From Microvirga zambiensis WSM3693 (GTDB lineage: Bacteria; Pseudomonadota; Alphaproteobacteria; Rhizobiales; Beijerinckiaceae): a stretch of 64,000 bases of DNA. Below the pieces are notes generated by a model. That model had not been told where the DNA came from and did no database searches. It saw only the letters and a program-made list of their open reading frames with translations. Where the stretch lies: NCBI RefSeq assembly GCF_016735695.1, contig NZ_JAERQD010000009.1:62001-126000 (forward strand), read 5' to 3'. The translations under genes and the position numbers were made by a program. This document shows, one piece after another, positions 42,064 through 58,964 of the stretch (position 1 is its first letter; each line of letters begins with the position of its first letter).

Positions 42064-42383
42064 GACCGCGCCAAACGGGCACAAACGTCCCGCGCATCAA
42101 AAAGCACACACGTTAGGGCATGGTGCGATTGCCGTGCCCTAATGTGGTTAGACGACTCTATAGCTGGCTCCCCAGACGGCATTCACGAAAGTTCCAGCAG
42201 TCCGGCGAAATTTTTAACGACCGGGCAGAAGCTTGAAGGTGTCTGCAGTTGCCTCGACCAAAATCCGAGCCCAGGGTTCTGGATGAACTCTACGCCTGTA
42301 CAATCGCGTTTCAGACAAACCGGGTGGCGCCTGCCATGACTGGGAGGGCCTAGCGAACGAACATCTCTGCGGAGTAAAAATCG
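42064..42383. other. 320-bp convergent gap with a hairpin
   Basis: No gene seen. TTAGGGCA (42113-42120) and TGCCCTAA (42135-42142) form an 8-bp stem without a T-tract, possibly the 3' end of the VCBS transcript. The rest shows nothing defensible. Confidence 0.5.
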
Positions 42384-43760
42384 TTAAACGACGAAAAGGT
42401 CTTTGTAGGTCAGGTTGAGGTTCTTCGATACCAGGGCAAACTCCACCGCGGCTTTGGAGCCCGAGCCGTCGACGTCATACGACAGCACGCCCGTTTTCTT
42501 GTTGTAGATGATGTAATCGTTGGAATCGCGGGCCTTGGTGAGGCGAAAATGCCCACTCTTCAACTGCGCCGGATCTGAACTGTCCCCTGCACTGCCGAGC
42601 TTCTTGAACATGGCATTGTCCAGCCAAATCGCATCGTCATGGACATTGAAGTCGGAGATCCGGTCTCTGTTGGCGCTCTTGCTCGGCTTCGTGTGAAACA
42701 CGAATAGATCCATCCCTGCGCCTCCGTAAAGGACATCGTTGCCCGCCCCACCGTTGATATAGTCGTCGCCGTCATATCCGCGCAGGGTATTCGAAAGCTG
42801 GTTTCCGAAGATTTCGTCGGCAAAGTTACTGCCCCGCACATACTCCATGTTACCTTCGAGCCAAACCATGGTTCGCGGGGACGAAGTGCCGACATCCGCG
42901 ACAGGCAGAGCCCAGCCGAACTTCTCGGTGACAATGTTGGAGAACTGCCAATATGGCAGCACGATGCGCCAACCTTCGGATGAGCCCTGGGCAGTTACCG
43001 TATCGCGGCCACCTGCGTCCCATATGGTCTGATAAAGGCTGTCGACCGAAAGGTTGTAGGTCGAGTCTCCTGCATTCGTTCTGCGATTGATGCCATACAA
43101 TGCCTGGAGTCCGATGACATCGAGCGCCATCGGCGTCGCCGGGTCGAATTCGGTGAAATTCAATTGATAATCATCCTCGTAGGACATCACCGAGAACCAG
43201 TCTTTGTCCCAGTTCGGAATACCCAGGTACTGCAATGTCGGACGCCCGGTACCGCCACCGTCATGCGTGTGCTTCAGACCAAGGGCATGCCCGAATTCAT
43301 GCAACAGCAAAAACCAACCTTGCGAACCCGCAGCGTAGGAAGGAAGCCTCACGGCCTCGCTGTTGACATTGAGAAAGACGTCTCCGGCACCGCCGGTATG
43401 CATCTCCATTTGTGTGGAAGGGAATCCGCCGATGGCCCAGCCCGACGGGTCGGAGAAGATTGCCGAACTTCCGCTCAGAGAAATGTTGAGATCTGAGCCC
43501 GAGTAGTATGAAGCCGAAGGATCTGCGTAATATCCATTGAACCTGAATCCAATGTTGGCGTATTGCGAGAATGTGTTCAGGACTTCATACGCAACCTGCG
43601 CGATCGCGGTTGGATCCGCCCAAGTCTCTCCCTGAAAACCATGCGACACGCCCCAAGTGAGCGTCCTCGTCCCGTCCATGACCCAATAGCTGCCGTTCGT
43701 GATGGCGTCGACGGCGGCATCGGCGGTGTAGGGGAACAATTGCCAAGTTGGGTAAGCCAT
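42384..43760 (-). CDS. Serralysin-type (M10) zinc metalloprotease with RTX domain (458 aa)
   Basis: Secreted metzincin protease. The zinc site HEFGHALGLKH gives H154, E155, H158 and H164, and the Met-turn SVMSY follows at 190-194 with M192 and the Tyr ligand. RTX nonapeptides are near residues 345-380 (NTLRGYDGDDYINGGAGNDVLYGG). The C-module (SDFNVHDDAIWLDNAMFKK...DYIIYNKKTGVLSYD) ends KDLFVV. I chose ATG 43760 (MAYPTWQLFP), preceded by GGAGG. There is no signal peptide and no short propeptide with a cysteine switch. It should use type I secretion; no inhibitor or transporter genes are adjacent. Confidence 0.9.
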   Translation of the reverse strand: MAYPTWQLFPYTADAAVDAITNGSYWVMDGTRTLTWGVSHGFQGETWADPTAIAQVAYEVLNTFSQYANIGFRFNGYYADPSASYYSGSDLNISLSGSSAIFSDPSGWAIGGFPSTQMEMHTGGAGDVFLNVNSEAVRLPSYAAGSQGWFLLLHEFGHALGLKHTHDGGGTGRPTLQYLGIPNWDKDWFSVMSYEDDYQLNFTEFDPATPMALDVIGLQALYGINRRTNAGDSTYNLSVDSLYQTIWDAGGRDTVTAQGSSEGWRIVLPYWQFSNIVTEKFGWALPVADVGTSSPRTMVWLEGNMEYVRGSNFADEIFGNQLSNTLRGYDGDDYINGGAGNDVLYGGAGMDLFVFHTKPSKSANRDRISDFNVHDDAIWLDNAMFKKLGSAGDSSDPAQLKSGHFRLTKARDSNDYIIYNKKTGVLSYDVDGSGSKAAVEFALVSKNLNLTYKDLFVV

Positions 43761-44003
43761 TGAACTGCCTCCAGCGAGGTTTCGCAAAAAGCATTCGATT
43801 CAATTGGATTATTGACGCTGTGAGCTTTGCCTGCCGCGCATATCGCATCGCGACGCGACGGCTATCACTGCCCACACCTGTACTTGCAAATCTATATAAA
43901 TACGACTACAGATGGAAGAATAGCTTAGCCGACAGCCTTCGCCTTACAAGAGCGAGATACTGGCTATTTCGGATAAGGCATCGGTCCGCGGCGGGGCCGC
44001 AAC

Positions 44004-45851: not shown

Positions 45852-46292
45852 ATGAAGATCGCCACTTTTGGCGCAGCCTTTCTTCTTGCCGTTCCAACGC
45901 TGCTGTCGCTGCCTGCGCAGGCAGGGCCGCTCCCCGGAATCGGTGTCCTTGCCGACACGAATCTTGCTCCCATCGAGACGGTACAATATCGCCGGGGCGG
46001 CTTCGTCGCCCGCGGTCCGCGTGGCGGGGTCGTTGCCGGTCGAGGCGTCGCGGTCGGGCGTCCAGCCTATCGCCCCGTCGGCCCGGTGCCCGTCCGGCCC
46101 GTCGGTCCATGGGTCCGGCCACCGAATTATTGGTGGCGTCCCGGCGCGGCCGTGGCAGCAGGAGCAGCCGTCGGTTTCGTGACCGCGGCTGCAGCCACCG
46201 CCTATGTCAGGACGCCGGCGCCTGCGCCCGGCTATTGCTGGTATTATACGAACACGCAGCGGACGCAGGGCTTCTGGGACGCCTGTCCGTGA
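45852..46292 (+). CDS. Small secreted Arg/Gly/Pro-rich protein (146 aa)
   Basis: Signal peptide about 1-24 (MKIATFGAAFLLAVPTLLSLPAQA). The mature part has an RGG/RGPRGG-rich segment (YRRGGFVARGPRGGVVAGRG), a proline-rich PVGPVPVRPVGPW run, a hydrophobic AVAAGAAVGFVTAAAATAYV stretch and a conserved C-terminus GYCWYYTNTQRTQGFWDACP of a kind common in rhizobial exported proteins. AGAGGGAG precedes the ATG. Its TGA overlaps the moxR ATG (TGATG), so it is the first gene of the Bat/FGE operon. Confidence 0.8.
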   Translation: MKIATFGAAFLLAVPTLLSLPAQAGPLPGIGVLADTNLAPIETVQYRRGGFVARGPRGGVVAGRGVAVGRPAYRPVGPVPVRPVGPWVRPPNYWWRPGAAVAAGAAVGFVTAAAATAYVRTPAPAPGYCWYYTNTQRTQGFWDACP

Positions 46293-47311
46293 TGGGCGCC
46301 TATCGCGCCGATTCCGATAACAGCGCCAGACCGGCCCTCCCGGCGCGTGAGGCCGTTCTCGATCTTCAAACGCGGGTGAACCAGGCGGTCATCGGGCAGG
46401 AACGGGTCGTCGAGCGGCTCATCATCGCCCTCCTTGCCAACGGCAACGTGCTGATCGAGGGCCTGCCCGGCCTCGCCAAAACCCGGGCGATCAAGAGCCT
46501 CGCTCAGAATCTCGAGGCGGATTTCAGCCGCATCCAGTTCACGCCCGATCTCCTGCCCTCCGACGTGACGGGCGGCGAGATCTATCGCAGCGACGGACAG
46601 GGCGGCGGCACGTTCGAATTCCGGCAAGGTCCGGTCTTCGGCAATCTCGTTCTCGCCGACGAAATCAACCGCGCTCCGGCGAAAGTCCAGTCCGCCCTGC
46701 TCGAGGCCATGGAGGAGCGGCAGGTGACGGTGGCCGGCAAGCGCTACAAGCTGCCCGACCTGTTCATGGTGCTGGCCACCGAAAATCCTATCGAGCAGGA
46801 AGGCACCTACCCCCTGCCGGAAGCGCAGATGGACCGCTTCCTGATGCATGTTCATATCGACTATCCGAGCGATGCCGACGAGGTGAAGGTGCTGCGCCTC
46901 GTGCGCGAGGAGAACGCGGGCGGGAGCACCACCGCTGCGCCGCCGAAGATTCCGCAGCAGGCGATCTTCGATGCGCGCAAGGAGATCGACCGCATCACCT
47001 CCACTGACGCCATCGAGACCTACATGGTCGGCCTGATCGCGGCGACACGCCGTCCGTCGGAATATGGGGACAAGCTCAAGCAATGGATCGCCATCGGCGC
47101 CAGCCCGCGCGGCTCGCTCGCCCTCGACCGGACGTCACGGGTGCAGGCCTGGCTTCAGGGACGCGACTATGTGGTGCCGGAGGATGTGCAGGCCATCGCC
47201 CATGACTGCCTGCGCCATCGCATCACCTTGAGCTATGAGGCGACCGCCGACGGCATCAGGGTCGACGATGTGATCGACGAGATCATCCGTCAGGTGGCCG
47301 TCGCCGCGTGA
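46292..47311 (+). CDS. moxR: MoxR-family AAA+ ATPase (339 aa)
   Basis: AAA+ chaperone-like ATPase of the MoxR group. Walker A is GLPGLAKT (residues 57-64), Walker B is LVLADEINRAP, sensor 1 is VLATENPIEQEGTYPLPEAQ(M)DRF and sensor 2 is GASPRGSLAL, all canonical. MoxR proteins act with VWA-domain partners to mature or activate complexes. The start ATG 46292 is coupled to the secreted protein gene; a long upstream frame is not real. It is followed by DUF58, DUF4381 and two VWA genes, the standard Bat order. Confidence 0.95.
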   Translation: MGAYRADSDNSARPALPAREAVLDLQTRVNQAVIGQERVVERLIIALLANGNVLIEGLPGLAKTRAIKSLAQNLEADFSRIQFTPDLLPSDVTGGEIYRSDGQGGGTFEFRQGPVFGNLVLADEINRAPAKVQSALLEAMEERQVTVAGKRYKLPDLFMVLATENPIEQEGTYPLPEAQMDRFLMHVHIDYPSDADEVKVLRLVREENAGGSTTAAPPKIPQQAIFDARKEIDRITSTDAIETYMVGLIAATRRPSEYGDKLKQWIAIGASPRGSLALDRTSRVQAWLQGRDYVVPEDVQAIAHDCLRHRITLSYEATADGIRVDDVIDEIIRQVAVAA

Positions 47312-47329
47312 CGAGGCAGGAGGTGACGG

Positions 47330-48313
47330 TTGGCCCCAATTGAAACCGCGCGCTCCCCCACCGATGGCCAGGGCCGGATAACGGTGACGACGGATGAACT
47401 CGCCCGCCTGCGCCACAAGGCAAGGGGCTTCAGCTTCCTGCCGCGCCAGCCCGTGCACAGCATTCTCACCGGGCGCCATGCCTCGCGGCTTCGCGGGCGC
47501 GGCCTGAACTTCGAGGAGCTGCGCCCCTATTATCCCGGCGACGACACCCGCACCATCGACTGGAACGCAACCGCGCGCCTGCGTGACCCGTTCATCCGCG
47601 TCTATACCGAGGAACGCGACCGGGCCGTCGTCCTGCTCGTCGACCAGCGCCTGTCGATGTTCTTCGGCAGCCGGCGCGCGACGAAATCGGTGGTCGCCGC
47701 CGAGGTCGCGGCGGCTTCTGCCTGGCGCGTGACATCGCTCGGCGACCGGATCGGCGCCGTCGTGTTCTCGGATGAGGCCGTCGAGACGGTGAAGCCGCAG
47801 GCGCGCGACGCGGGAGCACTGGCCGTGATCGATGCGGTCGTGCGCGCGAACCGCAAACTGCCGGACAACATCCGCGCGGCCTCGCGGCCGGCGGCGTTCA
47901 ACACAGCGCTTCAGCATGCCGCCGCCTTTCTGAAGCATGATGGCCTTCTCTGCCTGATCACGGATGCGGCCGGGGCCGACGACGAGACCGTGGAGCGCAT
48001 CACGACCATCACCGCCCATAACGACGTGCTGAGCATCTTCATCTACGACCCGATCGAGGCGGGCCTCCCGCAGATCGGCCCGGCGGTCGTGGCCGAGGCG
48101 GAGGGGCAGATCGAGGTCGATACGAACTCATCGGGACTGAGGCGCGACTTCGCGCAAGCGTTCGAGGAGCGGCGCGCCCAGATCGAAAAGTTTTCGCGCA
48201 AGCGCTCGATTCCGGTGCTGCCGATCAGGGCGGATCTCGACCCTATCGATCAGCTGCGCGAATTGCTCGGCCGCAAGGTCGCGCATTCCGTTCGCGAGGC
48301 GCCACCCTCATGA
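47330..48313 (+). CDS. DUF58 protein, Bat operon (327 aa)
   Basis: DUF58 proteins are VWA-like partners of MoxR. Signature LRGRGLNFEELRPYYPGDDTRTIDWNATAR lies near residue 55. The VWA-like domain has VVLLVDQRLSMFFG, where a MIDAS-like Asp is present but the DxSxS motif is incomplete, as is normal for DUF58. The start is probably TTG 47330 with GGAGG 6 nt upstream. The end overlaps DUF4381 by 4 bases. There is no membrane helix. Confidence 0.9.
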   Translation: MAPIETARSPTDGQGRITVTTDELARLRHKARGFSFLPRQPVHSILTGRHASRLRGRGLNFEELRPYYPGDDTRTIDWNATARLRDPFIRVYTEERDRAVVLLVDQRLSMFFGSRRATKSVVAAEVAAASAWRVTSLGDRIGAVVFSDEAVETVKPQARDAGALAVIDAVVRANRKLPDNIRAASRPAAFNTALQHAAAFLKHDGLLCLITDAAGADDETVERITTITAHNDVLSIFIYDPIEAGLPQIGPAVVAEAEGQIEVDTNSSGLRRDFAQAFEERRAQIEKFSRKRSIPVLPIRADLDPIDQLRELLGRKVAHSVREAPPS

Positions 48314-48774
48314 ACGGCGATCCGGCCGACCTCGCCAACCTGCGCGACATCGTTCTTCCATCGACGATCCCATGGTGGCCGCTGGCGCCAGGCCTGTGGA
48401 TCCTTCTGCTCGGCCTGCTCGCGACCATCCTCGTGGCATCCTTTCATGCCTTCCGACGGTACAAGGCCAATGCCTATCGGCGCGAGGCCATCCGCGAGCT
48501 CGATGGCCTGACCGACATGACCGGCATCATGCCGCTGCTCAAGCGGGCGGCGATGGTCGCCTATGGGCGCGAGGCTGTCGCTTCCTTAAGCGGCAATGCG
48601 TTTCTGGCTTTCCTCGACCGGACGGGCGGCACGAGCGTCTTCACCTCCGGCCCCGCCCGGCTTCTCCCGAGCCTCGCCTATTCAAAGCGCACCGGCCCGA
48701 CGTCCGGAGACCTCGACAGGGCCGTCGCGGATGCGCGGCGATGGTTGCGCAAACATCGCGCTCAGGGTGAGTAG
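48310..48774 (+). CDS. DUF4381 membrane protein, Bat operon (154 aa)
   Basis: One membrane helix (about residues 26-46, LWILLLGLLATILVASF) preceded by the family's IVLPSTIPWWPLAPG. A cytoplasmic domain follows, with YRREAIRELDGL and LLKRAAMVAYGREAVASLSG, typical of DUF4381 and Bat accessory proteins. It sits between DUF58 and the VWA genes, overlapping the former by 4 bases. One base separates it from the next ATG. Confidence 0.85.
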   Translation: MNGDPADLANLRDIVLPSTIPWWPLAPGLWILLLGLLATILVASFHAFRRYKANAYRREAIRELDGLTDMTGIMPLLKRAAMVAYGREAVASLSGNAFLAFLDRTGGTSVFTSGPARLLPSLAYSKRTGPTSGDLDRAVADARRWLRKHRAQGE

Positions 48775-48775
48775 C

Positions 48776-49783
48776 ATGCTCACCTTCGCCTATCCCTGGC
48801 TCGCGCTGCTGCTCCCCCTGCCCTGGCTCGTTGACCGGTTCGTGCCGCCGCATGCGCAACCCCGCGCCGGCATACGCGTGCCCTTCTTCGGAACGCTCGT
48901 GTCCCTCACCGGACAGGTGCCTGAGAGCGGCACGATCACGGCCCGCAGAGGTGCGGGCCGCATGGTGATCCTCATCCTCTGCTGGGTGCTGTCGCTTGCG
49001 GCGCTGATGCGGCCGCAATGGATCGAACCACCGCTCCATCGCGACCTGCCCACCCGCGACATGCTGCTGCTGGTCGACCTCTCCGCATCCATGGATACGA
49101 AGGACTTCGTGAACGCGCAGGGCCAGACAATCGACCGGCTCACGGCGCTGAAAGCGGTGCTCGACGATTTCGTGGCGCGTCGCCAGGGCGACCGGATCGG
49201 CGTGGTGGTTTTCGGCGATGCGCCGTTCACGCTGGTGCCGTTCACCACCGACCTGACATTGACGCGACAGCTCGTGCAGGACACCGCCGTCGGCATGGCG
49301 GGTCCGCGCACCGCGTTCGGCGACGCCATCGGGCTCGGCATCTCCCTCTTCGATTCATCGACAGTGAAGACGAAAACGATGATCGCGCTGACCGACGGCA
49401 ACGACACGGCGAGCAAGGTGCCGCCGGGCGAGGCGGCCGGCATCGCCAAGGATCGCGGCATCGTCATCCACACGATCGCCATCGGCGATCCGACCGCCGC
49501 CGGCGAGGAGAAGCTCGACGAGGCCGCCCTCAGGGACGTGGCGGAGCGAACCGGCGGCGGCTTCTACCGCGCGCTCGACCGCGAACAGCTCGAAGGCATC
49601 TACCGCCGCCTCGACGAGATCGAGACGCGGCGCATCGAGACGATCTCCTATCGGCCGAAGCGAGACCTCTATTGGATGCCGCTCGCCGCCGCTCTCCTTC
49701 TCGGCATGGGCGCGGCAGCTGTCATCCTCCTGCGCGGCCGGCGCTCGGCGCCGGCATCCCCGCGCCAGGAGGCTCTCTCATGA
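48776..49783 (+). CDS. batA: VWA-domain membrane protein, BatA-like (335 aa)
   Basis: Two N-terminal helices (about 6-22, 62-80) and one C-terminal helix (about 302-322) flank a periplasmic or cytoplasmic VWA domain. The MIDAS motif DLSAS (D101-S103-S105) is intact, with TDGND as the later MIDAS loop (ALTDGNDTAS). ATG 48776 lies just after the DUF4381 stop; its end overlaps the next gene as ATGA. Bat proteins act in envelope stress resistance in known systems; the exact substrate is unknown. Confidence 0.9.
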   Translation: MLTFAYPWLALLLPLPWLVDRFVPPHAQPRAGIRVPFFGTLVSLTGQVPESGTITARRGAGRMVILILCWVLSLAALMRPQWIEPPLHRDLPTRDMLLLVDLSASMDTKDFVNAQGQTIDRLTALKAVLDDFVARRQGDRIGVVVFGDAPFTLVPFTTDLTLTRQLVQDTAVGMAGPRTAFGDAIGLGISLFDSSTVKTKTMIALTDGNDTASKVPPGEAAGIAKDRGIVIHTIAIGDPTAAGEEKLDEAALRDVAERTGGGFYRALDREQLEGIYRRLDEIETRRIETISYRPKRDLYWMPLAAALLLGMGAAAVILLRGRRSAPASPRQEALS

Positions 49784-50718
49784 GCAGCGCTCTCGCCTCC
49801 TTTCACTTCCTGCGTCCCTGGTGGCTGGTGCTGCTCCTGCCGGCGGCCTTCCTGTGGTGGCATCTTCGGCGCCGATCCGACGCGGGCGCCCGATGGGCGA
49901 GCGTGATCGATCCCGCGATCCTTCGTGCGCTGACCATCGGCGGCGACGGCAAGGCCCGCTTCATGCCGCACGACGTGCTTCTGCTGGCCTGGGGCCTCGG
50001 CATTCTCGCGGTCGCCGGGCCGACCTGGACGCGAGAGCCCTCCCCCTTTGCCGATGCGCGACCGCCGGCGATGGTCGTCGTCAAGGTGGCACCGTCCATG
50101 AAGACGGAAGATCTGGCGCCGAGCCGCCTCGTGCGCTCAGTGCAGAAGCTCTCCGATCTCCTCGCCGCGCGGGAAGGCGCTTCGACGGGGCTTGTCGCCT
50201 ACGCCGGATCGGTCCACCTTGTCCTGCCGCCGACACCGGACAAGGATGTGGTGGTCGCCATGGCCCAGGCCCTGTCACCCGAAATCATGCCCGTGCCGGG
50301 CGACAGCCTGGCGCAGGCCGTTCGCCTCGCCGCGGGCGTACTGCGCGATGCCGGCAAGGGCGGTTCGATCCTCGTCATGGCGGACAGCGTTGCACCGGAA
50401 CAGGTGGCGCTTCTGCAGAATGCCGCACATGACCCCGTTCGGTTCGAGACCACCCTGTGGACCGCGGTTCCGCCCTCCCGTCTCGACGCCGAGGCGAGCC
50501 TGCAATCGGCGGCTTCCGCGATGGACGCCACGCTCGTTTCGATGACGCCCGACCGAACCGATGTGGAAAGCGTCGCCGCACGGCTCGACCGCGCGACGGT
50601 CGTGAGCGATGTCGCGGGAGAAGGCGAGCGCTGGCAGGAGGCGGGCTATTGGCTGACGCCGCTGATCGCCCTCCTCGCCCTCGCCTGGTTCCGGCGCGGC
50701 TGGGTCTTGGGGGGCTGA
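49780..50718 (+). CDS. batB: VWA-domain membrane protein, BatB-like, degenerate MIDAS (312 aa)
   Basis: Same architecture as its neighbour: helices near 13-28 and 65-82 and at the C-terminus (YWLTPLIALLALAWF). At the metal-binding position the sequence is VVVKVAPSM instead of DxSxS: Asp is Lys102, the first Ser is Ala104, and only Ser106 remains. So it probably cannot bind a MIDAS metal. It overlaps BatA by 4 bases and is followed by the TPR protein 4 bp later. It may act as a structural partner of BatA. Confidence 0.87.
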   Translation: MSSALASFHFLRPWWLVLLLPAAFLWWHLRRRSDAGARWASVIDPAILRALTIGGDGKARFMPHDVLLLAWGLGILAVAGPTWTREPSPFADARPPAMVVVKVAPSMKTEDLAPSRLVRSVQKLSDLLAAREGASTGLVAYAGSVHLVLPPTPDKDVVVAMAQALSPEIMPVPGDSLAQAVRLAAGVLRDAGKGGSILVMADSVAPEQVALLQNAAHDPVRFETTLWTAVPPSRLDAEASLQSAASAMDATLVSMTPDRTDVESVAARLDRATVVSDVAGEGERWQEAGYWLTPLIALLALAWFRRGWVLGG

Positions 50719-50722
50719 CGCC

Positions 50723-51391
50723 ATGCACCAGATCCATCGCCTCTTCTCGCTCCTGGCCCGCCACGCCTATGCGGCAATCGCCTGCGCCGTGGCGGTCGCG
50801 CTCATCGTGCTCGGCTTCCTGACCGGCTGGCGGAACATGCTGCTGACACCCGATCAGCGCGGCGCCTGGGACATGCGCCAGGAGCGCTACAAAGAGGCCG
50901 CGGATGCCTTCGCGGATCCCCTATGGCGCGGTGTCGCCCTGTTCCGGGCAGGCGATTTCAAGGATGCGGCGCAGGCCTTGGCGGCCATCGAGACGGCGGA
51001 GGCGGCCTACGATCAGGGCAACGCACTCGTGATGCTCGGCCAGTATGACAACGCAGTCGGTCGCTACGACGTCGCGCTCGAATTTCGCCCGGGCTGGGCG
51101 GAGGCGGAGGCCAACCGGAATCTGGCGAAGCTGCGCGCCGAGCGCATGAAGACGACCGGCGGCGACATGGGCGACACGGACTCGAAGCCGGACGAGGTCG
51201 TCTTCGATGCGAGCAAGCCGAAGGGCGAGGGCAAGGACGATCAGGTGGCCGGCGGCGAGCCGATGTCCGACGCGGCCGTGCGGGCGCTATGGCTGCGCGG
51301 CGTCCAGACGAGGCCTGCCGATTTCCTGCGCTCGAAATTCGCCTACCAGCTCCAGAACCAATCATCTCCCAACGCGGTGCCCCGCCCATGA
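50723..51391 (+). CDS. batC: TPR-containing membrane protein, BatC-like (222 aa)
   Basis: N-terminal helix (about 12-34, HAYAAIACAVAVALIVLGFLT). A short TPR array follows (WRGVALFRAGDFKDAAQALAA, ANRNLAKLRAERMK and neighbours), then an acidic linker (GGDMGDTDSKPDEVV...KPKGEGKDD). The C-terminal PADFLRSKFAYQLQNQ closely resembles the ends of BatC-type proteins, which read RRRFxYQxxQ. It overlaps FGE by 4 bases (ATGA), linking the Bat machine to sulfatase maturation. Confidence 0.87.
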   Translation: MHQIHRLFSLLARHAYAAIACAVAVALIVLGFLTGWRNMLLTPDQRGAWDMRQERYKEAADAFADPLWRGVALFRAGDFKDAAQALAAIETAEAAYDQGNALVMLGQYDNAVGRYDVALEFRPGWAEAEANRNLAKLRAERMKTTGGDMGDTDSKPDEVVFDASKPKGEGKDDQVAGGEPMSDAAVRALWLRGVQTRPADFLRSKFAYQLQNQSSPNAVPRP

Positions 51392-52383
51392 AGCATTCCG
51401 TCGTTTCCCCCAAACCATCGACGACCGGCAGCGGCATGGTCTGGATCCCCGGAGGCACGTTCGCCATGGGGTCGAACCATCACTATCCCGAGGAGGCGCC
51501 CGTTCATCGCGTCACTGTCGACGGGTTCTGGATGGATGCGACGCCGGTGACGAACCGCCAGTTCAAGGCTTTCGTTCTGGCAACGGGCCACGTCACCACC
51601 GCCGAGATCGTCCCCGATGCGAAGGATTATCCCGGCGCCAAGCGCGAGATGCTGCGCGCCGGCTCCCTGCTCTTCACGCCGCCGCCCCATCCCGTCGATC
51701 TGCGCGACTGGAGCCAGTGGTGGACCTTCGCCTTCGGCGTCACGTGGAAGCGGCCTTACGGACCGAACGGCAATCTCAAGGGGCTGGAAGATCATCCCGT
51801 CGTTCATGTCAGCTACACCGACGCCCTCGCCTATGCGCGCTGGGCCGGAAAGGACCTGCCCTCCGAGGCCGAGTGGGAATTCGCCGCGCGCGGCGGGCTC
51901 GAGGGAACCGAGTTCGCCTGGGGCGACGAATTCGCGCCCGGCGACCGGCAGATGGCGAATACATGGCAGGGGCAGTTCCCATTCCAGAACACCATGCTCG
52001 ACGGCTACGAGCGCACGTCGCCCGTCGGCACATTCCCGCCGAACGGCTATGGCCTGTCGGACATGATCGGCAATGTCTGGGAATGGACGAACGACTGGTA
52101 CGCGCCGAAGCACCCGGAGGATGCGCCGAAGGCTTGCTGCATCCCCGAGAACCCGCGCGGCGGGCGCGAGGGGAGCAGCTACGATCCGCGCCAGCCGGAG
52201 ATCAGGATTCCGCGGAAGGTCGTGAAGGGCGGCTCACATCTCTGCGCGCCCAATTACTGCCGCCGCTACCGCCCGGCTGCCCGCCACCCGCATCCGATCG
52301 ACACGTCGACGAGCCACATCGGATTTCGGTGCGTGCGGCGCGACATCGGCGAGGGAGACCGTCAGAGCACGAGTGGCAGGTAG
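51388..52383 (+). CDS. Formylglycine-generating enzyme / sulfatase-modifying factor (331 aa)
   Basis: Copper-dependent oxidase that converts the sulfatase active-site Cys to formylglycine. FGE-sulfatase fold: N-terminal MVWIPGGTFAMGS, then DATPVTNRQFKAF and SEAEWEFAARGG. C286 and C291 in GGSHLCAPNYCRRYRPAAR match the two active-site cysteines of characterised FGEs (human C336/C341), so the enzyme appears catalytically complete. The C-terminal STSHIGFRCVRR is canonical. It has no signal peptide. It closes the Bat operon, 4-bp overlapped with BatC. The nearest likely substrate is the arylsulfatase at 53883. Confidence 0.95.
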   Translation: MKHSVVSPKPSTTGSGMVWIPGGTFAMGSNHHYPEEAPVHRVTVDGFWMDATPVTNRQFKAFVLATGHVTTAEIVPDAKDYPGAKREMLRAGSLLFTPPPHPVDLRDWSQWWTFAFGVTWKRPYGPNGNLKGLEDHPVVHVSYTDALAYARWAGKDLPSEAEWEFAARGGLEGTEFAWGDEFAPGDRQMANTWQGQFPFQNTMLDGYERTSPVGTFPPNGYGLSDMIGNVWEWTNDWYAPKHPEDAPKACCIPENPRGGREGSSYDPRQPEIRIPRKVVKGGSHLCAPNYCRRYRPAARHPHPIDTSTSHIGFRCVRRDIGEGDRQSTSGR

Positions 52384-52475
52384 AGCGCGCCGAGCGCAAC
52401 GGTAATTGCGAGCACCGCCGTGGCAGTGGCCCAAAATGAGCTTCTGTTGTCTGAGCCGTCCGTAACCTGTCTCAT
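52362..52475 (-). CDS. Possible 37-residue membrane peptide
   Basis: MRQVTDGSDNRSSFWATATA then a hydrophobic VLAITVALGALYLPLVL. It overlaps the FGE 3' end. There is no good Shine-Dalgarno. It may be chance; a longer frame to 52547 also exists. Confidence 0.25.
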   Translation of the reverse strand: MRQVTDGSDNRSSFWATATAVLAITVALGALYLPLVL

Positions 52476-52687
52476 AACCTGTATCCGTCGCGTCCTCTTG
52501 GCCGAGTGAAACCCGGCCCCCGCCCATATGCCGGCGGCTGCAGTCATCAGCAGGCTGGGAGACCGTTGGAATCAGGAATCACGCCCGCCCCTCTGGATCA
52601 TCATGCAGCAGGAGGCGGAGGGTCTCTGTGCCTTGCCGCACATGGGGGCGCGTTCATGCGGCCGGTCGGTGCAGCGCGGTGAGCACT
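52384..52687. other. 304-bp convergent gap between the FGE and channel genes
   Basis: Apart from the doubtful 37-codon frame ending at 52362 I see no gene, repeat or terminator here. Confidence 0.5.
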
Positions 52688-53689
52688 TCAGTATTTCGCG
52701 ACAACCGGACGCACCGGCTCAGGCGGGGCGCTTACGCCTAAGGGGAAGGCCACCGTGAACAGGCCGATGGTCCCTTCGGGGCGGTTCTCCACATCGACCT
52801 CGCGCAAAACCTTGATGCGCGTCGTCACCGGCGTGCCGGCAACGGTGAAGTCGTAGCCGACGGTGCCGCCGACGGCGGCCACCCGCCCCTTGAACGGCCC
52901 GATGCGATTGCCCGCGCCGCTGTCGCCGGAGAGCTGGTCGTAATAGCCGCCAAGCAGCCCAATCGAGAGTTCCTTGGTCAGGTATTTGCTGATGGAAACA
53001 TCCAGGTGGAATGCATTGCCGCTGTCGTAGTCGGTATCGGGATTCTCGCCGTTGAATTCAAATCCGGCCGTGCCGGAGATATCGATGCCCAAATCGGTGT
53101 TGAGCCAGGTCATGGAGCCGGAGATGTCGCCGATCCAGCGGTTGAACGACATGTTGGAGAGTTCGCCCTCCTGATACGTTCCGGACGGGATGTTGACCGA
53201 GCCGCTGACGTTCCAGTGGAAATTTCCCGAGTGCCAGCCGACGATTGCCGTCGCGATCGGATCGCCCATGTTGAAGGTGGCATCCCGGCTGCTGAAGGCG
53301 AAAACCCGGCCGAGGCGCGGCGCCGCGATCACCGCGCCTGCGCTGACCCGGGGAACGCCGAAGGGCAGGCTCAAACCGAAGGCCAGGCTGCCGCCGAAGA
53401 TCTCGGCCGGCGTGACCCAGGTTCCCGTCAGAAAATCGGCCCGCACCTCGACCTTCACGTTCGCCAGCACGGCGCCGCCGATCTGGATCTGGCGCCCGCC
53501 GCTGAGCTCGCCGGAATAGGTGTAGAAGTCGTTCTCGAAATAGAAGCCCGGCGGCGGAACGATGCCGGCTCCTGGACCGTGAAAGCCGGGAACATAGAGA
53601 CCGGCGCCACCTTCCGTCGCCAGTGCCGCGTCTGCCAGAAGGCTGCCGCAGCCCACAGCCAGTGCGGTCGTCATCGAGCGCCAATTCAT
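52688..53689 (-). CDS. Outer-membrane channel-like protein, phenol MetA-pathway/SphA family (333 aa)
   Basis: Predicted outer-membrane beta-barrel of the family annotated 'transporter' or 'MetA-pathway of phenol degradation'. The signal peptide is in the first 24 residues (MNWRSMTTALAVGCGSLLADAALA). The mature start is TEGGAGLYVPGFHGPGAGIVPPPGFYFENDFYTYSGE, typical of the family, and alternating beta strands follow to the C-terminal VVAKY (Tyr end). I chose ATG 53689, with GGGAGC upstream. It is 193 bp downstream of the sulfatase on the same strand. The transported compound is unknown. Confidence 0.8.
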   Translation of the reverse strand: MNWRSMTTALAVGCGSLLADAALATEGGAGLYVPGFHGPGAGIVPPPGFYFENDFYTYSGELSGGRQIQIGGAVLANVKVEVRADFLTGTWVTPAEIFGGSLAFGLSLPFGVPRVSAGAVIAAPRLGRVFAFSSRDATFNMGDPIATAIVGWHSGNFHWNVSGSVNIPSGTYQEGELSNMSFNRWIGDISGSMTWLNTDLGIDISGTAGFEFNGENPDTDYDSGNAFHLDVSISKYLTKELSIGLLGGYYDQLSGDSGAGNRIGPFKGRVAAVGGTVGYDFTVAGTPVTTRIKVLREVDVENRPEGTIGLFTVAFPLGVSAPPEPVRPVVAKY

Positions 53690-53882
53690 GAAGCAGCTCC
53701 CACGCTGATCGTCCGAGGGCAGCATGGCGCGATGCATGTGCGAGATAAATCGCGTTTTTGCTACTCCGTCCCAATCTCCCTATGTGTTGCCGAAGTGTCT
53801 CAGAATGTCTCATTCGACGCATCGAACAGCCGGCGTTCCGGGAAGGCGGAGCGCCTGCCACCAGGCGCTCCGCACGCGCGGC

Positions 53883-55511
53883 CTATTTACTGCTTCCCGG
53901 CTGTGAGAGCTTCGCCATCACCTCGTCGAGATTGAAGCTCGCCGGCTTCTGCCTGATCGGGAATTCCTGGAAACTCGACAGCCACTGGGCCACAACGGCT
54001 TGCGACGGCACCACCACGAAGGCCCGGTCGAAGAACCATTTCTCGTATTCGATCGACTCGTCGCCACGTTCAAATGGATCCGCCCGCAGATTGAACAGCA
54101 AGGGCGCGCGAAGATTGGTGAACTCGCGCCTCCAGACGCCGATGCCTGTGCTCTCCTGCGCCTTGAAGACCACCTTCCAGTCCATGACCCGAATCGCGAC
54201 GAGTTCGCCGTCATCGTTCCAGTAGAGGAAGTCGCGCCTGGGCGATTCCTTTGAGCTCCCCGTGAAGAAAGGCATGAGATTGTAGCCGTCGAGATGCACC
54301 TTGAAGGTCTTCCCGTTGGCCTGATGGCCTCTCAGGCATTTGGCCACGACGTCCGGCTCGCCGCCGGCGGCGCAGAAGGTTGGAATCAGGTCATAGTGCG
54401 AGAAAACCTCGTTGTGGATCGTGTTGGGACGGATCACGCCGGGCCAGCGGATCAGCGTCGGCACTCGGTAGCCGCCCTCCCAGTTCGTCGCCTTCTCGCC
54501 TCTGAACGGCGTATTGCCGCCATCCGGCCACGTCATCACCTCGGCGCCGTTATCGGTCGTGTAGACGACGATGGTGTTCTGGGTGACGCCGAGATCGTCG
54601 AGCTTCTTCAAGAGTTGGCCGACATGGCCGTCATGTTCGACCATGCCGTCGGGATAGAGGCCCTTGCCTGTCTTGCCGTCGGATTCGGGCTTCAGATGGG
54701 TGTTGACGTGCATGCGGGTCGAGTTGAAGTAGCAGAACCAGGGCTTGCTGGCGCGGTGCTGGCGATCGATGAAATCGAGTGCCGCGGCGCAGGTCTCGTC
54801 GTCGATGGTCTCCATGCGCTTGCGTGTCAGCGGCCCCGTATCCTCGATCTTGCCGTCGGCGCTCGAGCGGATGACGCCGCGCGGACCGAAACGCCGGCGG
54901 AAATTCGGATCCTTGGGATAGTCGGGGTTCTCCGGCTCCTCTTCGGCATTGAGGTGATAGAGGTTGCCAAAGAACTCATCGAAGCCGTGCGCCGTCGGCA
55001 GGAACTCGTCCTTGTCGCCGAGATGGTTCTTGCCGAACTGGCCCGAGACATAGCCGAGTGGCTTCAGCAGCTCGGCGACCGTGGGATCCTCCGCCCGAAG
55101 GCCGATATCGGCGCCTGGCAGGCCGACCTTGGTGAGGCCCGTGCGGATCGGCGATTGTCCCGTGATGAAGGCGGCGCGCCCCGCGGTGCAGCTCTGCTCG
55201 CCGTACCAATCGGTGAACAACGCGCCCTCGTTGCCGATGCGGTCGATGTTGGGCGTGCGGTAGCCCATGATGCCGCGATGATAGATGCTCGGGTTGAACC
55301 AGCCGATATCGTCGCCCATGATCATCAGGATATTGGGCTTCTGACCGGAAGCGGGGGCTGGTGCGGCCTGCGGCTGGGTCTGGGCCTGGGCGGAGGTTGC
55401 CGCGACCGTGGCGAGCACGGTGGCCGTTCCCGACAGCAGCAGGTCGCGCCGATTGACGCTCGTCTTGGTGGCATCCTTCTCGTCATCCGGTCGGCGATGA
55501 TGATCACTCAT
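53883..55511 (-). CDS. Tat-exported arylsulfatase with CTAGR active site (542 aa)
   Basis: Type I sulfatase. A twin-arginine signal (NRRDLLLSGTATVLATVAAT) directs export after folding. The metal aspartates are in IMGDDIGWFNP (D67-D68). The catalytic Cys is C108 in SCTAGRAAFITGQ, giving the motif C-x-A-x-R (the more usual form is C-x-P-x-R), to be oxidised to formylglycine by FGE. TDNGAE supplies later metal ligands. A 70-residue C-terminal region follows. The HAD gene lies 57 bp upstream. The substrate sulfate ester is unknown. Confidence 0.93.
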   Translation of the reverse strand: MSDHHRRPDDEKDATKTSVNRRDLLLSGTATVLATVAATSAQAQTQPQAAPAPASGQKPNILMIMGDDIGWFNPSIYHRGIMGYRTPNIDRIGNEGALFTDWYGEQSCTAGRAAFITGQSPIRTGLTKVGLPGADIGLRAEDPTVAELLKPLGYVSGQFGKNHLGDKDEFLPTAHGFDEFFGNLYHLNAEEEPENPDYPKDPNFRRRFGPRGVIRSSADGKIEDTGPLTRKRMETIDDETCAAALDFIDRQHRASKPWFCYFNSTRMHVNTHLKPESDGKTGKGLYPDGMVEHDGHVGQLLKKLDDLGVTQNTIVVYTTDNGAEVMTWPDGGNTPFRGEKATNWEGGYRVPTLIRWPGVIRPNTIHNEVFSHYDLIPTFCAAGGEPDVVAKCLRGHQANGKTFKVHLDGYNLMPFFTGSSKESPRRDFLYWNDDGELVAIRVMDWKVVFKAQESTGIGVWRREFTNLRAPLLFNLRADPFERGDESIEYEKWFFDRAFVVVPSQAVVAQWLSSFQEFPIRQKPASFNLDEVMAKLSQPGSSK

Positions 55512-55568
55512 GGTCCGCTCCTTCGTTGCTTCAGGAATGCGACATGGCCGCTCGGCGGCTGTTCTTAG

Positions 55569-56576
55569 TCATGGCTTGAAGATCGTCTTCCAGTCGTTCT
55601 TCATGTCGACGACGAGCCATCCGCGCTTCGGTGCCTCGTCGAGAGCCTTGTCGAGCTTTCCGACATGCGATTGCCGGTCGTAGGCGTATTCGCGCTCCGC
55701 GTCGGTGTGGTGGACGATGAGGGCGAAGCGCGGACCCGTATTCAGCGTCGTCCATTGCAGCATCTGCAGGTCGCCGTCCGAATTGCCGGCCGCGAAGACA
55801 GGGCGGCGCCCGATGAAGCGGTTGATGCCGACAGGCTTGCCCGGCCCGTCGTCCACGAACTCGACGCTCGGAAGTTTTTCGATCACCGGCGTATCGCCTT
55901 CGAGACGGTACGCGGTCTTGCCGCTCGAGCCGACCACCTGCTCGGGCGGGATGCCGTAGGCCTTCTCCGTCCAGGGACGCATGAACTCGACGCCGCCGCC
56001 GGAGACGATGAAGGTCTTGAACCCGTTGGCGCGCAGATAGGCCAGCAGCTCGATCATCGGCTGGTAGACGAGATCCGTGTAGGGCCGGTTGAAGCGCGGA
56101 TGCCGCGCGGTTTCGAGCCAGTCGCTCACCATCTTGTCGAATGCGGCCGTGGTCATGCCGCTATGGGTCGAGATCACGAGTTCGGTGAGGCCTTGTTCGC
56201 CCAGAGCGGCGAGCGCAGCGTGGTCAGACGTCAGGATCGCCTTGAAGGGTTGCCTGTTCGCCAGTTCCGGGTTGGATTGAGCGAGCACCTTGGCGCGATC
56301 GAGCACGAACGCCGCCTGCACGTACATCGGCTGCTCAATCCACAGCGTGCCGTCATTGTCGAAGGTGGCGATGCGCTCCTCGACCGGCACGAAATCCGGC
56401 CCGCCCTGTCGCGTCACTCGTTCGACGAAAGCGGTGATGGAGGATTTGGCACCGCCGTCGTTCCACGACGGAAGAGGATCGGTCTGCGCCTGCGGCACAC
56501 TCGCCGTGAATGCCAGGGCAAGGAAGGCGGCAGCGGCGATGAATCCGCGCCGCGTTCGACGGGCGATACCATTCAT
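55569..56576 (-). CDS. Exported HAD-superfamily phosphatase (335 aa)
   Basis: Haloacid dehalogenase-like hydrolase. Motif I is ATFDNDGTLW (D73 nucleophile, D75 acid/base), motif II is FIVSGGG, and the late acidic motif is AAGNSDGDLQM. An Arg-rich leader (MNGIARRTRRGFIAAAAFLALAF) looks like an export signal, perhaps Tat, cleaved near PQAQ. I chose ATG 56576, with GGAGGACC upstream. It sits between the BatD-like gene and the sulfatase on one strand. The substrate is unknown; a phosphatase serving the sulfatase pathway is plausible. Confidence 0.87.
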   Translation of the reverse strand: MNGIARRTRRGFIAAAAFLALAFTASVPQAQTDPLPSWNDGGAKSSITAFVERVTRQGGPDFVPVEERIATFDNDGTLWIEQPMYVQAAFVLDRAKVLAQSNPELANRQPFKAILTSDHAALAALGEQGLTELVISTHSGMTTAAFDKMVSDWLETARHPRFNRPYTDLVYQPMIELLAYLRANGFKTFIVSGGGVEFMRPWTEKAYGIPPEQVVGSSGKTAYRLEGDTPVIEKLPSVEFVDDGPGKPVGINRFIGRRPVFAAGNSDGDLQMLQWTTLNTGPRFALIVHHTDAEREYAYDRQSHVGKLDKALDEAPKRGWLVVDMKNDWKTIFKP

Positions 56577-56613
56577 GGCGAGGTCCTCCGAAAGGGCTGT
56601 ACGACGCTGCATC

Positions 56614-57891
56614 TCATGATCCGGCAACCGGATTGAGCGGAGGCAGCGCCGAGCCGTGTGCCGCGCGCGGCGTGCGCTTGGGAATGGACGACACGGCATG
56701 TGCCAGTTGCCGTCCGAGGTCAGGCGTCCATTCTCCGCCGTGGCCGAAGAGCGAGCGCTCCAACTGCATCGTCAAGGCACGCAGCGGCTCGTGACCCGCG
56801 ACCTCCTCGGCGTCGGACAGCGACATCCTCGACCGCCACACGCCGAGCGCGCGATAGGTCGCAGCCGCATCGCCCGTTCGGGCGGCGCGGCACAGATCGC
56901 GCCGTGCCGCATGCTCGGAGCCGGCTCGGCGACGCTGCCATGCGAGCCATGCTTCGTGCGCCCACGGCCAGCCATAGCGAACGATCATGGCGATGCCCGC
57001 GATGAAGGCCGCCAGGATCGCAGCCGCCGTCAGCCACGCGCGCGTGTTCCAAGGGCCCGCAGCCGGAGATGCGGCCGAATCCGGCGCGGCGGCAATCGTC
57101 ACCGTCGCGCCAGTGAGAGGAACGGATTGCACCGATTTCGTGCCGAGATCCCACCAGGGCTGCGACAATGCCGGAAGCTCGAAGGCCCCGGCGCGTTCGA
57201 ACACATAAGTGACCTTGTCCGTGCGATGCCCCGTAATGGCGCCCCGGTTGGCGCGGTCTTCGCTGACGGGCGGGTCGACATAGGCACGTACGCCGTCCGG
57301 CGCCACGAAACGGAGTTCGGGCATGCCGAGCGCCGGCACATCCGCCGCCTCGCGCGTGATCGTCCTGACGACGGCGCCGCCGGGCGCGAGGCGCGTCCTG
57401 GGATCGGGCGTCCAGCTTTGCACGGCCGTGACGCGAGTCGAGGCGATCACGGGCCCGGACGCGTCGACGCCCTGCGGCACGGTTACATTCAACGTTACCG
57501 GATTGCCCTTGGCCGATCCGGTAACGTCGCCGGCCGCGTTGAGCAGGGTGACTTCCGCCGGCGGGAGCGCCAGCGCCCCGCCGCGGCGGGGAAAGATGTC
57601 GAAGGTGAAACGCTGACCGACGTAAGTCTGCCCGCCCGTATTCTCGGTGAGCGTTACGCCCTGGCTCTCGAAGCGCATGACCTGGACGCCCTGCGCGTCC
57701 GGGATCTTCACCCTCGGCGGCCGCGGCATCGTGTCGGGAAAGAGCACGTCCACATAAAGGCTGACGGATTGGCCGATAACGGCTCCCTGCGCGGGGTCGA
57801 GCACTTCCCGCACCACAACCCCTGGGGTCTGGGCCCCGACGGGCAGGGCGAAGGCGATGAAACCGACCGCGAGAGCACCCCGTACAGCCAT
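56614..57891 (-). CDS. batD: BatD-like protein (425 aa)
   Basis: Signal peptide about 1-20 from ATG 57891 (a TTG at 57906 would add five residues). The exported part contains Ig-like beta-rich segments with TPGVVVREVLDPAQGAVIGQ and RFTFDIFPRRGGALALPPAEVTLL, characteristic of BatD ('oxygen tolerance') proteins. A single helix near 285-305 (ILAAFIAGIAMIVR) and a cytoplasmic C-terminal tail of about 115 residues (LCRAARTGDAAATYRAL) follow. It completes the Bat set, though on the strand opposite to batABC. The HAD and sulfatase genes follow it. Confidence 0.85.
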   Translation of the reverse strand: MAVRGALAVGFIAFALPVGAQTPGVVVREVLDPAQGAVIGQSVSLYVDVLFPDTMPRPPRVKIPDAQGVQVMRFESQGVTLTENTGGQTYVGQRFTFDIFPRRGGALALPPAEVTLLNAAGDVTGSAKGNPVTLNVTVPQGVDASGPVIASTRVTAVQSWTPDPRTRLAPGGAVVRTITREAADVPALGMPELRFVAPDGVRAYVDPPVSEDRANRGAITGHRTDKVTYVFERAGAFELPALSQPWWDLGTKSVQSVPLTGATVTIAAAPDSAASPAAGPWNTRAWLTAAAILAAFIAGIAMIVRYGWPWAHEAWLAWQRRRAGSEHAARRDLCRAARTGDAAATYRALGVWRSRMSLSDAEEVAGHEPLRALTMQLERSLFGHGGEWTPDLGRQLAHAVSSIPKRTPRAAHGSALPPLNPVAGS

Positions 57892-57936
57892 CGCCAAGTC
57901 TCTCAACCTAATCCCGTGCCGTGATGAATCATCGCC

Positions 57937-58331: not shown

Positions 58332-58964
58332 TTACGGTTCGACGAGCTTGTTGCGGATGGCGTAGCGGACGAGCGTTGCGGTGGAGTTGGCGTTGACCTT
58401 GCGCATCGCCGAGGAGCGGTGGCTCTCCACCGTCTTCAGGTTCAGGCCCAAGATCTGCGCCGTCTCCTTGTTCGAATGCCCCTCGGCGATCAGCTGCACC
58501 ACCCGCCGCTCGCGCGCGGTCAGCACCCCGTCGCCGGTATGGCCCTGGGCCAGATAGGCATTGAGCAGCGTCTCCGACACGCGGCCCGTGAAGAACGGCT
58601 TGTGCCGGGCAAGCGATTCCACCGCCGCGATCAGGAAGCGGCGCGCGTCCGATTTCAGCAGATAGCCGCGCGCCCCCGCCTCGAGCAGCTCGCGCACCAG
58701 AGGCTCGCTCTCGTGCATGGTGAAGATCAGCACTTCCGTCTGCGGCTGCACGGCGCGGATCTCGCGCGTCGCGTCGACCCCGTTCATCGACGGCAGCTGG
58801 TAGTCGAGGATGGCCACGTCCGGCTTGGTCTCGGCGGCAAGCTGCACCGCCTGGCGCCCGTCCTCGGCCTCCGCCACCACCTCCCAGCCCGGCTGACCGC
58901 CCAGGATCGTGCTCAAGCCAGAGCGCACAACATCATGGTCGTCGGCAATCAGGATACGCGTCAT
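58332..58964 (-). CDS. Two-component response regulator, NarL/FixJ (LuxR) type (210 aa)
   Basis: Receiver domain (residues 1-120) with the acidic pocket ILIADDHDVVRSG, phospho-acceptor Asp in VAILDYQLPSMNG and Lys in YLLKSDARR. A LuxR-type helix-turn-helix follows in LTARERRVVQLIAEGHSNKETAQILGLNLKTVESHRSS. No sensor kinase is adjacent. It is a lone gene, so the cognate kinase and target genes cannot be inferred. Confidence 0.95.
   Translation of the reverse strand: MTRILIADDHDVVRSGLSTILGGQPGWEVVAEAEDGRQAVQLAAETKPDVAILDYQLPSMNGVDATREIRAVQPQTEVLIFTMHESEPLVRELLEAGARGYLLKSDARRFLIAAVESLARHKPFFTGRVSETLLNAYLAQGHTGDGVLTARERRVVQLIAEGHSNKETAQILGLNLKTVESHRSSAMRKVNANSTATLVRYAIRNKLVEP

Follow-up and report, generated by a model that had tools for sequence, protein, structure and literature searches.

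A sulfatase beside a MoxR/Bat operon in Microvirga zambiensis

We analyzed a stretch of 64,000 nucleotides from Microvirga zambiensis WSM3693 (contig NZ_JAERQD010000009.1, positions 62,001 to 126,000), hereafter the window, which is part of a 7.36-Mb genome assembled in 257 contigs. Twelve of its genes, spanning 45,852-57,906, encode a MoxR ATPase and its Bat-type partners together with an exported type I sulfatase, a formylglycine-generating enzyme (FGE), a HAD phosphatase, and an outer-membrane barrel (Table 1). Comparison with other genomes indicates that the window represents a distinct branch of MoxR-DUF58-DUF4381-VWA-VWA/TPR-BatD clusters that adjoins one family of predicted exported type I sulfatases. 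By the same comparison, this branch often also comes with a periplasmic HAD phosphatase, an outer-membrane barrel, and a maturase, which is either FGE or, for Ser-type sulfatases, an anaerobic sulfatase maturase (anSME). The machine very probably serves the sulfatase.

Our open reading frame (ORF) calls and family assignments match those of an earlier sequence-only reading of this DNA, and the tight operon that it described holds at every plus-strand junction, with overlaps of 1 to 4 bp and gaps of at most 18 bp. The plus-strand order is SEC, MoxR, DUF58, DUF4381, VWA1, VWA2, TPR, FGE. SEC and MoxR overlap by 1 bp (TGATG at 46290), an 18-bp gap precedes DUF58, DUF58 and DUF4381 overlap by 4 bp, and DUF4381 lies 1 bp before VWA1; VWA1 and VWA2 overlap by 4 bp, VWA2 and TPR are 4 bp apart, and TPR and FGE overlap by 4 bp. 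On the minus strand, in transcription order, lie the genes for the BatD-like protein, HAD, the sulfatase, and the PF13557 barrel, the last converging on FGE; gene calls and Pfam thus bear out the earlier description of a BatD-like protein, a HAD phosphatase, and a Tat-exported CTAGR sulfatase lying convergently beside the operon.

Table 1. Genes of the MoxR/Bat-sulfatase locus (positions in the window)
Feature	Position	Strand	Evidence
SEC, small secreted Gly/Arg/Pro-rich protein, 146 amino acids	45852..46292	+	ORF and leader; operon's first gene
MoxR AAA+ ATPase, 339 amino acids	46292..47311	+	Pfam AAA_3 (4.8e-62) and AAA_lid_2
DUF58 protein, TTG start, DQRLS at MIDAS position	47330..48313	+	Pfam PF01882
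DUF4381 protein, one membrane helix (read from sequence)	48310..48774	+	Pfam PF14316, 2.5e-36
VWA1, BatA-like, three likely membrane helices	48776..49783	+	Pfam VWA (scan used longer start)
VWA2, BatB-like, degenerate MIDAS KVAPS	49780..50718	+	Pfam VWA_2
TPR protein, BatC-like	50723..51391	+	Pfam TPR_2
FGE, 331 amino acids, without leader, Cys pair CAPNYC	51388..52383	+	PF03781, 5.9e-82
Outer-membrane beta-barrel type protein	52688..53737	-	Pfam PF13557
Type I sulfatase, Tat-type exported, CTAGR, metal ligands GDD and TDN	53883..55511	-	Pfam PF00884, 1.4e-48
Exported HAD phosphatase-like protein, FDNDGT	55569..56582 (TTG 56582, ATG 56576)	-	Pfam PF12710
BatD-like protein, signal peptide	56614..57906 (TTG 57906, ATG 57891)	-	Pfam DUF7939 above, BatD below cut-off

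All active-site letters that we checked in the window proteins, by reading the sequence and comparing across loci, are intact. The sulfatase has the type I (S1) motif (CTAGR) and, in GDD and TDN, its metal ligands (D, D, D, N); its leader contains NRRDLLLSG, of the twin-arginine translocation (Tat) type, and the arylsulfatase PDB 7aj0 is its structural-database sequence match. FGE has the two active-site cysteines of its family (C286/C291), both of which align with those of the FGE in PDB 6muj (3e-70). MoxR has intact Walker A and B motifs and its closest copies, at 88-89% identity, in Microvirga rosea and M. subterranea; neither it nor DUF58 has a leader. The metal ion-dependent adhesion site (MIDAS) of VWA1, DLSAS, is intact, and the locus holds the MoxR, DUF58, and BatA-type VWA proteins that define a Bat/MoxR machine, along with the second VWA protein, the TPR protein, and BatD (below the Pfam cut-off for BatD, with relatives annotated "BatD family protein"). 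VWA1 matches NCBIfam BatA_Lepto below its cut-off and PDB 4rck and 3ibs (BatB), and the charges flanking its helices suggest that its domain probably faces the periplasm, the same side as the sulfatase, HAD, and BatD. The HAD protein keeps FDNDGT and matches PDB 4ovy across ~300 residues. We rejected its identification as a phosphorylcholine phosphatase, as the PDB sequence search (E<=0.01) gave 4ovy alone, which is named just HAD hydrolase, and we therefore claim no substrate for it.

Linkage of one MoxR branch to a sulfatase family

Loci were collected with an FGE query across genome contigs, which gave 80 loci, and with queries blind to the sulfatase, namely DUF4381 in 387 class-level and 150 order-level genomes and MoxR (E<=1e-98) in 398 phylum-level and 397 order-level genomes. 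Each locus extends ~10 kb per side, "no partner" means none inside that range, and neighborhoods were read by tblastn with the window's proteins for part of the matches. For DUF4381 we took the 40 regions with stronger matches and left half-length and weaker matches aside; for MoxR the first 20 regions comprised 18 top-ranking ones (G825 and second copies skipped) plus G738 and G805, lower-ranking picks from a family already seen linked, and second copies were added later. L177-L184 come from genomes selected for having the FGE family, and 20 of 108 plasmid records were examined, picked for diversity. Trees were quick, with SH-aLRT or FastTree supports, and the 104-locus MoxR tree leaves out L155 and L156 (repeats of L108 and L115), L093, L001 (the window), L095 and L096 (distant), and L185 (same genome as L048).

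FGE beside a sulfatase and HAD was common among the FGE-query loci, and six of these (L015, L020, L038, L048, L070, L081) also hold genes of the MoxR set, differently ordered, the sets of L020 and L081 being cut by the locus end. In a first MoxR tree, a sulfatase accompanied 37 members of a clade of 41 (support 100), against 0/35 outside the clade. The sequence-only reading had proposed comparing such clusters with ordinary bat operons, and when this was done on the 104-locus tree, a sulfatase of this family lay within 12 kb in 55/61 loci on the window's side (49/55 without the six FGE-query loci), against 0/43 among the other, here called ordinary, Bat/MoxR clusters; a sulfatase, FGE, or HAD is near 58 of the 61. 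The unrooted branch that separates the 61 from the 43 misplaces none in FastTree (100), and IQ-TREE (99) gives the same unrooted split except that L094 and L228, both distant, are misplaced. Placement of the root is uncertain: with L094 as root, the first tree makes the linked rows one clade and the 104-locus tree the ordinary rows, and a further MoxR tree does not make the ordinary rows one clade, although the split between linked and ordinary holds unrooted. Metal ligands are intact in 55/55 linked sulfatases, and at the MIDAS position of DUF58, among the commonest forms listed (up to 8 per list), DQR occurs in 48/59 linked and DFR in 14/42 ordinary proteins.

The sulfatase-blind set tells the same story. 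A family sulfatase adjoins the machine in 30 of the 34 genomes with a window-type MoxR (exceptions: G461, G710, G741, and G1065), where sulfatase number and genome size would predict 0.34; because these genomes are related, the nominal probability is not literal. All 34 encode a family sulfatase at E<=1e-60, and where there is a single such match (17 genomes), it adjoins the machine in 16. As a within-genome control, G819, G725, G843, G577, G574, G644, G679, and G741 each hold an additional Bat cluster (L229-L236) that is placed among the ordinary ones, and a sulfatase, FGE, or HAD is near 0/8 of these; the other MoxR of G710 (L238) sits on a 6.8-kb contig and is uninformative for neighborhood. 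Chance, or an arrangement peculiar to one genome, is rejected by the recurrence across loci and by the 30 observed against 0.34 expected. The sequence-only reading had held that the link would be accidental if FGE stood next to batC in this genome only, and Microvirga rosea (L178) has the same gene order as the window.

Elsewhere gene order and strand vary, and clusters paired with the sulfatase occur in Alpha- and Gammaproteobacteria and in a Bacteroidota, the set being held by Persicobacter of that phylum. Deposited annotation gives FGE-HAD-MoxR-DUF58-DUF4381-VWA-VWA-hypothetical (TPR)-BatD-arylsulfatase on p4 of Azospirillum argentinense and arylsulfatase-MoxR-...-BatD-FGE-HAD on plasmids of Agrobacterium, Rhizobium leguminosarum, and R. 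rhizogenes. A Paracoccus yeei plasmid also holds the set (there, a HAD tblastn match at L213 8633-9523 overlaps the gene at the DUF58 position), and a convergent sulfatase is found in Sinorhizobium medicae and, by tblastn, on S. meliloti pSymB. FGE may follow BatD or precede HAD in other genomes. Two Pantoea plasmids read outer-membrane protein-arylsulfatase-anaerobic sulfatase maturase-MoxR-DUF58-DUF4381-VWA-VWA-oxygen tolerance domain protein-HAD, and several of the junctions are 1-bp overlaps. Eight other plasmid records (L214, L217-L219, L223-L225, L228) hold ordinary clusters and no sulfatase. Over 51 loci (L185 counting the genome of L048 again), the neighbors are a sulfatase in 45, HAD in 23, FGE in 22, and an octaheme cytochrome c with TPR in 11. 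Two more families recur in 6 and 4 loci, with the members scanned identified as DUF3300 and DUF2950. A DUF2950 and DUF3300 pair lies at L180 5567-7782, and both families are also near the linked clusters L070, L149, and L179. A PF01663 phosphodiesterase separates the sulfatase from MoxR in L108 and L150, and in L121 it is flanked by two sulfatases.

Several further observations concern the remaining genes and the host genome. Relatives of the barrel are annotated "transporter" near an arylsulfatase or HAD in L212, L213, L220, and L226. SEC has no NCBIfam match; tblastn places relatives beside FGE in L007, L018, L028, L036, L075, and L184 and beside HAD in L143, but since SEC is of low complexity, these are weak evidence. 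The genome of the window has eight PF00884 matches, one other strong MoxR (L094), and, at L002, a further Cys-pair FGE that adjoins another sulfatase-like gene; its sulfatase match G000:C175:71787-73034 contains one TGA stop and is perhaps a decayed gene. A LuxR-type response regulator at 58332-58964 of the window is 60-68% identical to ones near the FGE/Bat loci L139, L007, L009, L023, and L029, a pattern that could reflect a shared regulator or mere synteny. At 40699-43787 lies an FG-GAP/cadherin repeat protein and, adjoining on the opposite strand, an RTX/M10-type metalloprotease-like protein.

Maturases and the role of the machine

The sequence-only reading had tied the Bat machine to an envelope sulfatase through an operon that includes FGE. 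The tie to the sulfatase is upheld by a link that is recurrent, shuffled, and lacking in the ordinary clusters sampled; FGE as a constant partner is rejected, as it is the variable part, standing beside the cluster in only 22/51 loci, replaced by anSME in Pantoea, and not found with its Cys pair in 13/34 blind-set genomes. Because FGE varies and the sulfatase mostly stays, the constant client of the machine would be the sulfatase and not FGE. Both linked sulfatases in Pantoea read STAGR, not CTAGR, and, with anSME in the place of FGE, chemistry and maturase therefore changed together while the machine was kept.

Of the 34 blind-set genomes, 21 have an FGE match at E<=1e-50, and the Cys pair stands in 28/28 FGEs checked in linked loci. 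No Cys-pair FGE was found in the other 13 genomes. G725 and G880 lack any PF03781 match (E<=1e-5), and in a multiple alignment both cysteines occur in 0/18 FGE-superfamily proteins from the other 11, against 5/5 controls; L189 of G461, a 76% complete genome, has one Cys only. Among the 13, anSME is above its cut-off only in G741, and in G409, G574, G577, and G644 radical-SAM proteins match the anSME model at scores under the cut-off. In G880, G725, G843, G205, G401, G988, and G819 a Cys-type (CTAGR/CTAAR) sulfatase is present, and neither a Cys-pair FGE nor an anSME match (E<=1e-20) was found. G741 holds three Bat clusters and three anSMEs. In 11 of the 13 genomes, C-T-A-x-R is kept, in 12 linked sulfatases. 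A twin-Arg motif, searched for in the 75 residues before the sulfatase core, where Tat may be missed in L159, L161, L175, and L176, was found in 0/12 linked sulfatases of FGE-less genomes against 10/23 in FGE genomes (L147 doubtful). The octaheme cytochrome c with TPR was found in 7/13 FGE-less loci against 4/22 others (the window counted among the 22), and in no ordinary cluster of the sample at that stage; all 11 have 8 CxxCH motifs and C-terminal TPR repeats, with Pfam run on two (examples are L158 6744-8975 and L144 15333-17279). The cytochrome and Tat patterns are suggestive only and may follow phylogeny, and a formylglycine route not previously recognized in such maturase-poor genomes is possible on the strength of these gene inventories.

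We think that the locus is, with somewhat better than even chances, one version of a sulfatase-dedicated Bat/MoxR machine that finishes the sulfatase after export. Under this reading, an ATP-driven membrane machine probably helps to switch the sulfatase on outside the inner membrane. The maturase would make formylglycine in the cytosol, and the sulfatase would be exported by Tat (as in the window) or Sec (elsewhere); MoxR and DUF58 would act in the cytosol, with the VWA, TPR, and BatD parts facing the periplasm, and the machine would spend ATP to finish the exported enzyme. Type I sulfatases are divalent-metal enzymes, those of bacteria usually containing Ca2+, and the finishing step would most likely be loading of the active-site Ca2+ and/or completion of folding, with the MIDAS of VWA1 as a client-binding or metal-handling site. 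That Ca2+ loading specifically is the step is a tentative suggestion, drawn from the mxa genes considered below, which are tied to the insertion of Ca2+ into the methanol dehydrogenase of the periplasm and whose mutants are rescued when Ca2+ is added. PMC3557215 refers to a proposal in which the MIDAS metal of Bat proteins is what MoxR acts on. HAD would hydrolyze a phosphate ester in the same pathway. Comparison across loci gives HAD and the barrel a recurrent neighborhood only; sulfate-stripped products may be handed over to them, as the sequence-only reading had supposed.

A number of observations weigh against a dedicated machine of this kind. Six window-side loci have no sulfatase. L160 (a fragmented assembly with the sulfatase on another contig), L167 (whose genome has two sulfatases beside its further cluster L237), and L142 (a cluster split across contigs) show no partner at all, and the decayed-looking L154 has HAD only, L177 FGE only, and L210 FGE and HAD only. 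L210, from the betaproteobacterium Cupriavidus metallidurans CH34, has no sulfatase within ~10 kb; its MoxR and DUF58 tblastn matches lie downstream of DUF4381-VWA-VWA-TPR-BatD-FGE-HAD, and the cluster seems reordered. The clusters L237 (G741), L239 (G675), and L240 (G734) have a MoxR that is only 51-53% identical and yet falls on the linked side; L237 and L239 are each flanked by two sulfatases, and L240, which groups with the linked branch, has no partner. The linked sulfatases fall into more than one clade (the sulfatase tree shows 12 label changes), and one-to-one co-evolution with a single sulfatase clade is rejected on that count. The Ca2+ step rests on analogy with mxa, and L214, the sole cluster found with a methanol dehydrogenase next to it, groups among the ordinary ones. 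Finally, a window-type MoxR is absent from 34 of the 48 genomes that carry the FGE family. Sulfatases of this kind therefore do not generally require the machine, and together with the mixed sulfatase clades this means that it is not indispensable for the sulfatase fold. Such sulfatase systems can dispense with the machine, while the machine rarely lacks a sulfatase; from these distributions it looks like an accessory used by several sulfatases of the family.

The genes may instead share a pathway without direct contact, the Bat machine remodeling or protecting the envelope while the sulfatase, HAD, and barrel scavenge a substrate that is both sulfated and phosphorylated, so that the genes travel together as needed under the same condition. 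The other neighbors are indeed hydrolases and a barrel, the PF01663 phosphodiesterase among them (L108, L150, L121), and the linked sulfatases are phylogenetically mixed. We nevertheless consider this rather unlikely, since only one Bat branch shows the link and ordinary clusters of the same genomes lack it, since a single-copy sulfatase adjoins the machine in 16/17 genomes, and since HAD and FGE come and go while the sulfatase mostly stays. Accident, or sulfatase islands carried along by gene transfer without any functional tie, would fit the changing sulfatase partners and the several plasmid copies; the excess of 30/34 over 0.34 expected, the shuffled order, and the replacement of the maturase in place make it very improbable.

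The maturase-poor genomes suggest another alternative, a third route to active formylglycine sulfatase, in which the VWA/BatD machine, sometimes with the octaheme cytochrome c, would convert the Cys of the sulfatase in the periplasm after Sec export. This route would apply to bacteria without FGE and anSME, the cytochrome would serve as electron acceptor in some lineages, and the FGE or anSME of window-type operons would be a cytosolic version of the same step. It could account for genomes where no Cys-pair FGE was found (13/34, only one of them with anSME above the cut-off), where linked sulfatases keep C-T-A-x-R and lack the twin-Arg motif, and where the cytochrome is more frequent (7/13 against 4/22). 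We regard it as improbable, however, since the machine is also found alongside anSME and, in the window, in one operon with FGE, none of its parts is obviously a Cys oxidase, four of these genomes have sub-cut-off anSME matches, G461 is 76% complete with one Cys in its protein, and the cytochrome pattern may follow phylogeny. The dedicated finishing machine remains the reading that we prefer.

Comparison with known systems

The MoxR/Bat-sulfatase link was not found described in the open-license literature, subscription journals lying outside the search. Maturation by FGE or anSME is matched here by a Cys-pair FGE beside a CTAGR sulfatase and, in Pantoea, by anSME beside a STAGR sulfatase; we know of no AAA+/VWA machine in these pathways as described. 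MoxR-vWA-beta-propeller (VMAP) ternary conflict systems also combine MoxR and VWA proteins, and PMC7159879 mentions an FGE-fold effector domain, "FGS", in them. There, FGS is an effector domain in systems that are mostly cyanobacterial, whereas the FGE here keeps its Cys pair and neighbors a sulfatase and Bat proteins. The window MoxR matches AAA_3 (4.8e-62) far better than bpMoxR (1.3e-14), and neither a VMAP beta-propeller nor its effector domains were found among the 19 ORFs scanned with Pfam, a subset of the ORFs of ~39-64 kb. An anti-phage or conflict system is rejected as well, with one marginal PADLOC match (MoxR to DolB, E 0.0008; 8 proteins) and no VMAP-type parts.

A closer parallel is the mxaRSACKL cluster, in which MxaR is MoxR and MxaS is DUF58. 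According to PMC3615186, it encodes the ATPase MxaR, MxaS, and two VWA proteins, MxaC and MxaL, and Ca2+ insertion is given as one function of the mxa genes that lie downstream of mxaI. As described there (e.g., for Methylosinus), it likewise sets ATPase and VWA genes beside a periplasmic Ca2+ enzyme. Its client is a pyrroloquinoline quinone (PQQ) methanol dehydrogenase, not a sulfatase; none was found among the 19 scanned ORFs. In Paracoccus alcaliphilus (L214 13405-15210), a MoxR-DUF58-VWA-BatD cluster does lie beside cytochrome c and a PQQ methanol dehydrogenase.

To our knowledge, the clients of MoxR/VWA (Bat) machines are mostly unknown. A Bat branch tied almost one-to-one to a single enzyme family offers a defined client with a simple colored or fluorescent assay, and the action of a Bat/MoxR machine on its client can therefore be tested directly using ordinary rhizobia and azospirilla. 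The branch also draws attention to genomes that have Cys-type sulfatases but no recognized formylglycine maturase. Bat (Bacteroides aerotolerance)/MoxR operons such as bat of Leptospira share MoxR, DUF58, two VWA proteins, TPR, and BatD with the window. The batB-batC fusion that PMC3557215 gives for L. biflexa has a counterpart in the fusion of VWA2 to the TPR protein seen in other genomes (e.g., L015). Unlike ordinary sampled clusters (0/43), one MoxR branch here is tied to a sulfatase, often with HAD and FGE or anSME, and what our comparison appears to add to a machinery already known as a type is this sulfatase-linked branch with a defined client.

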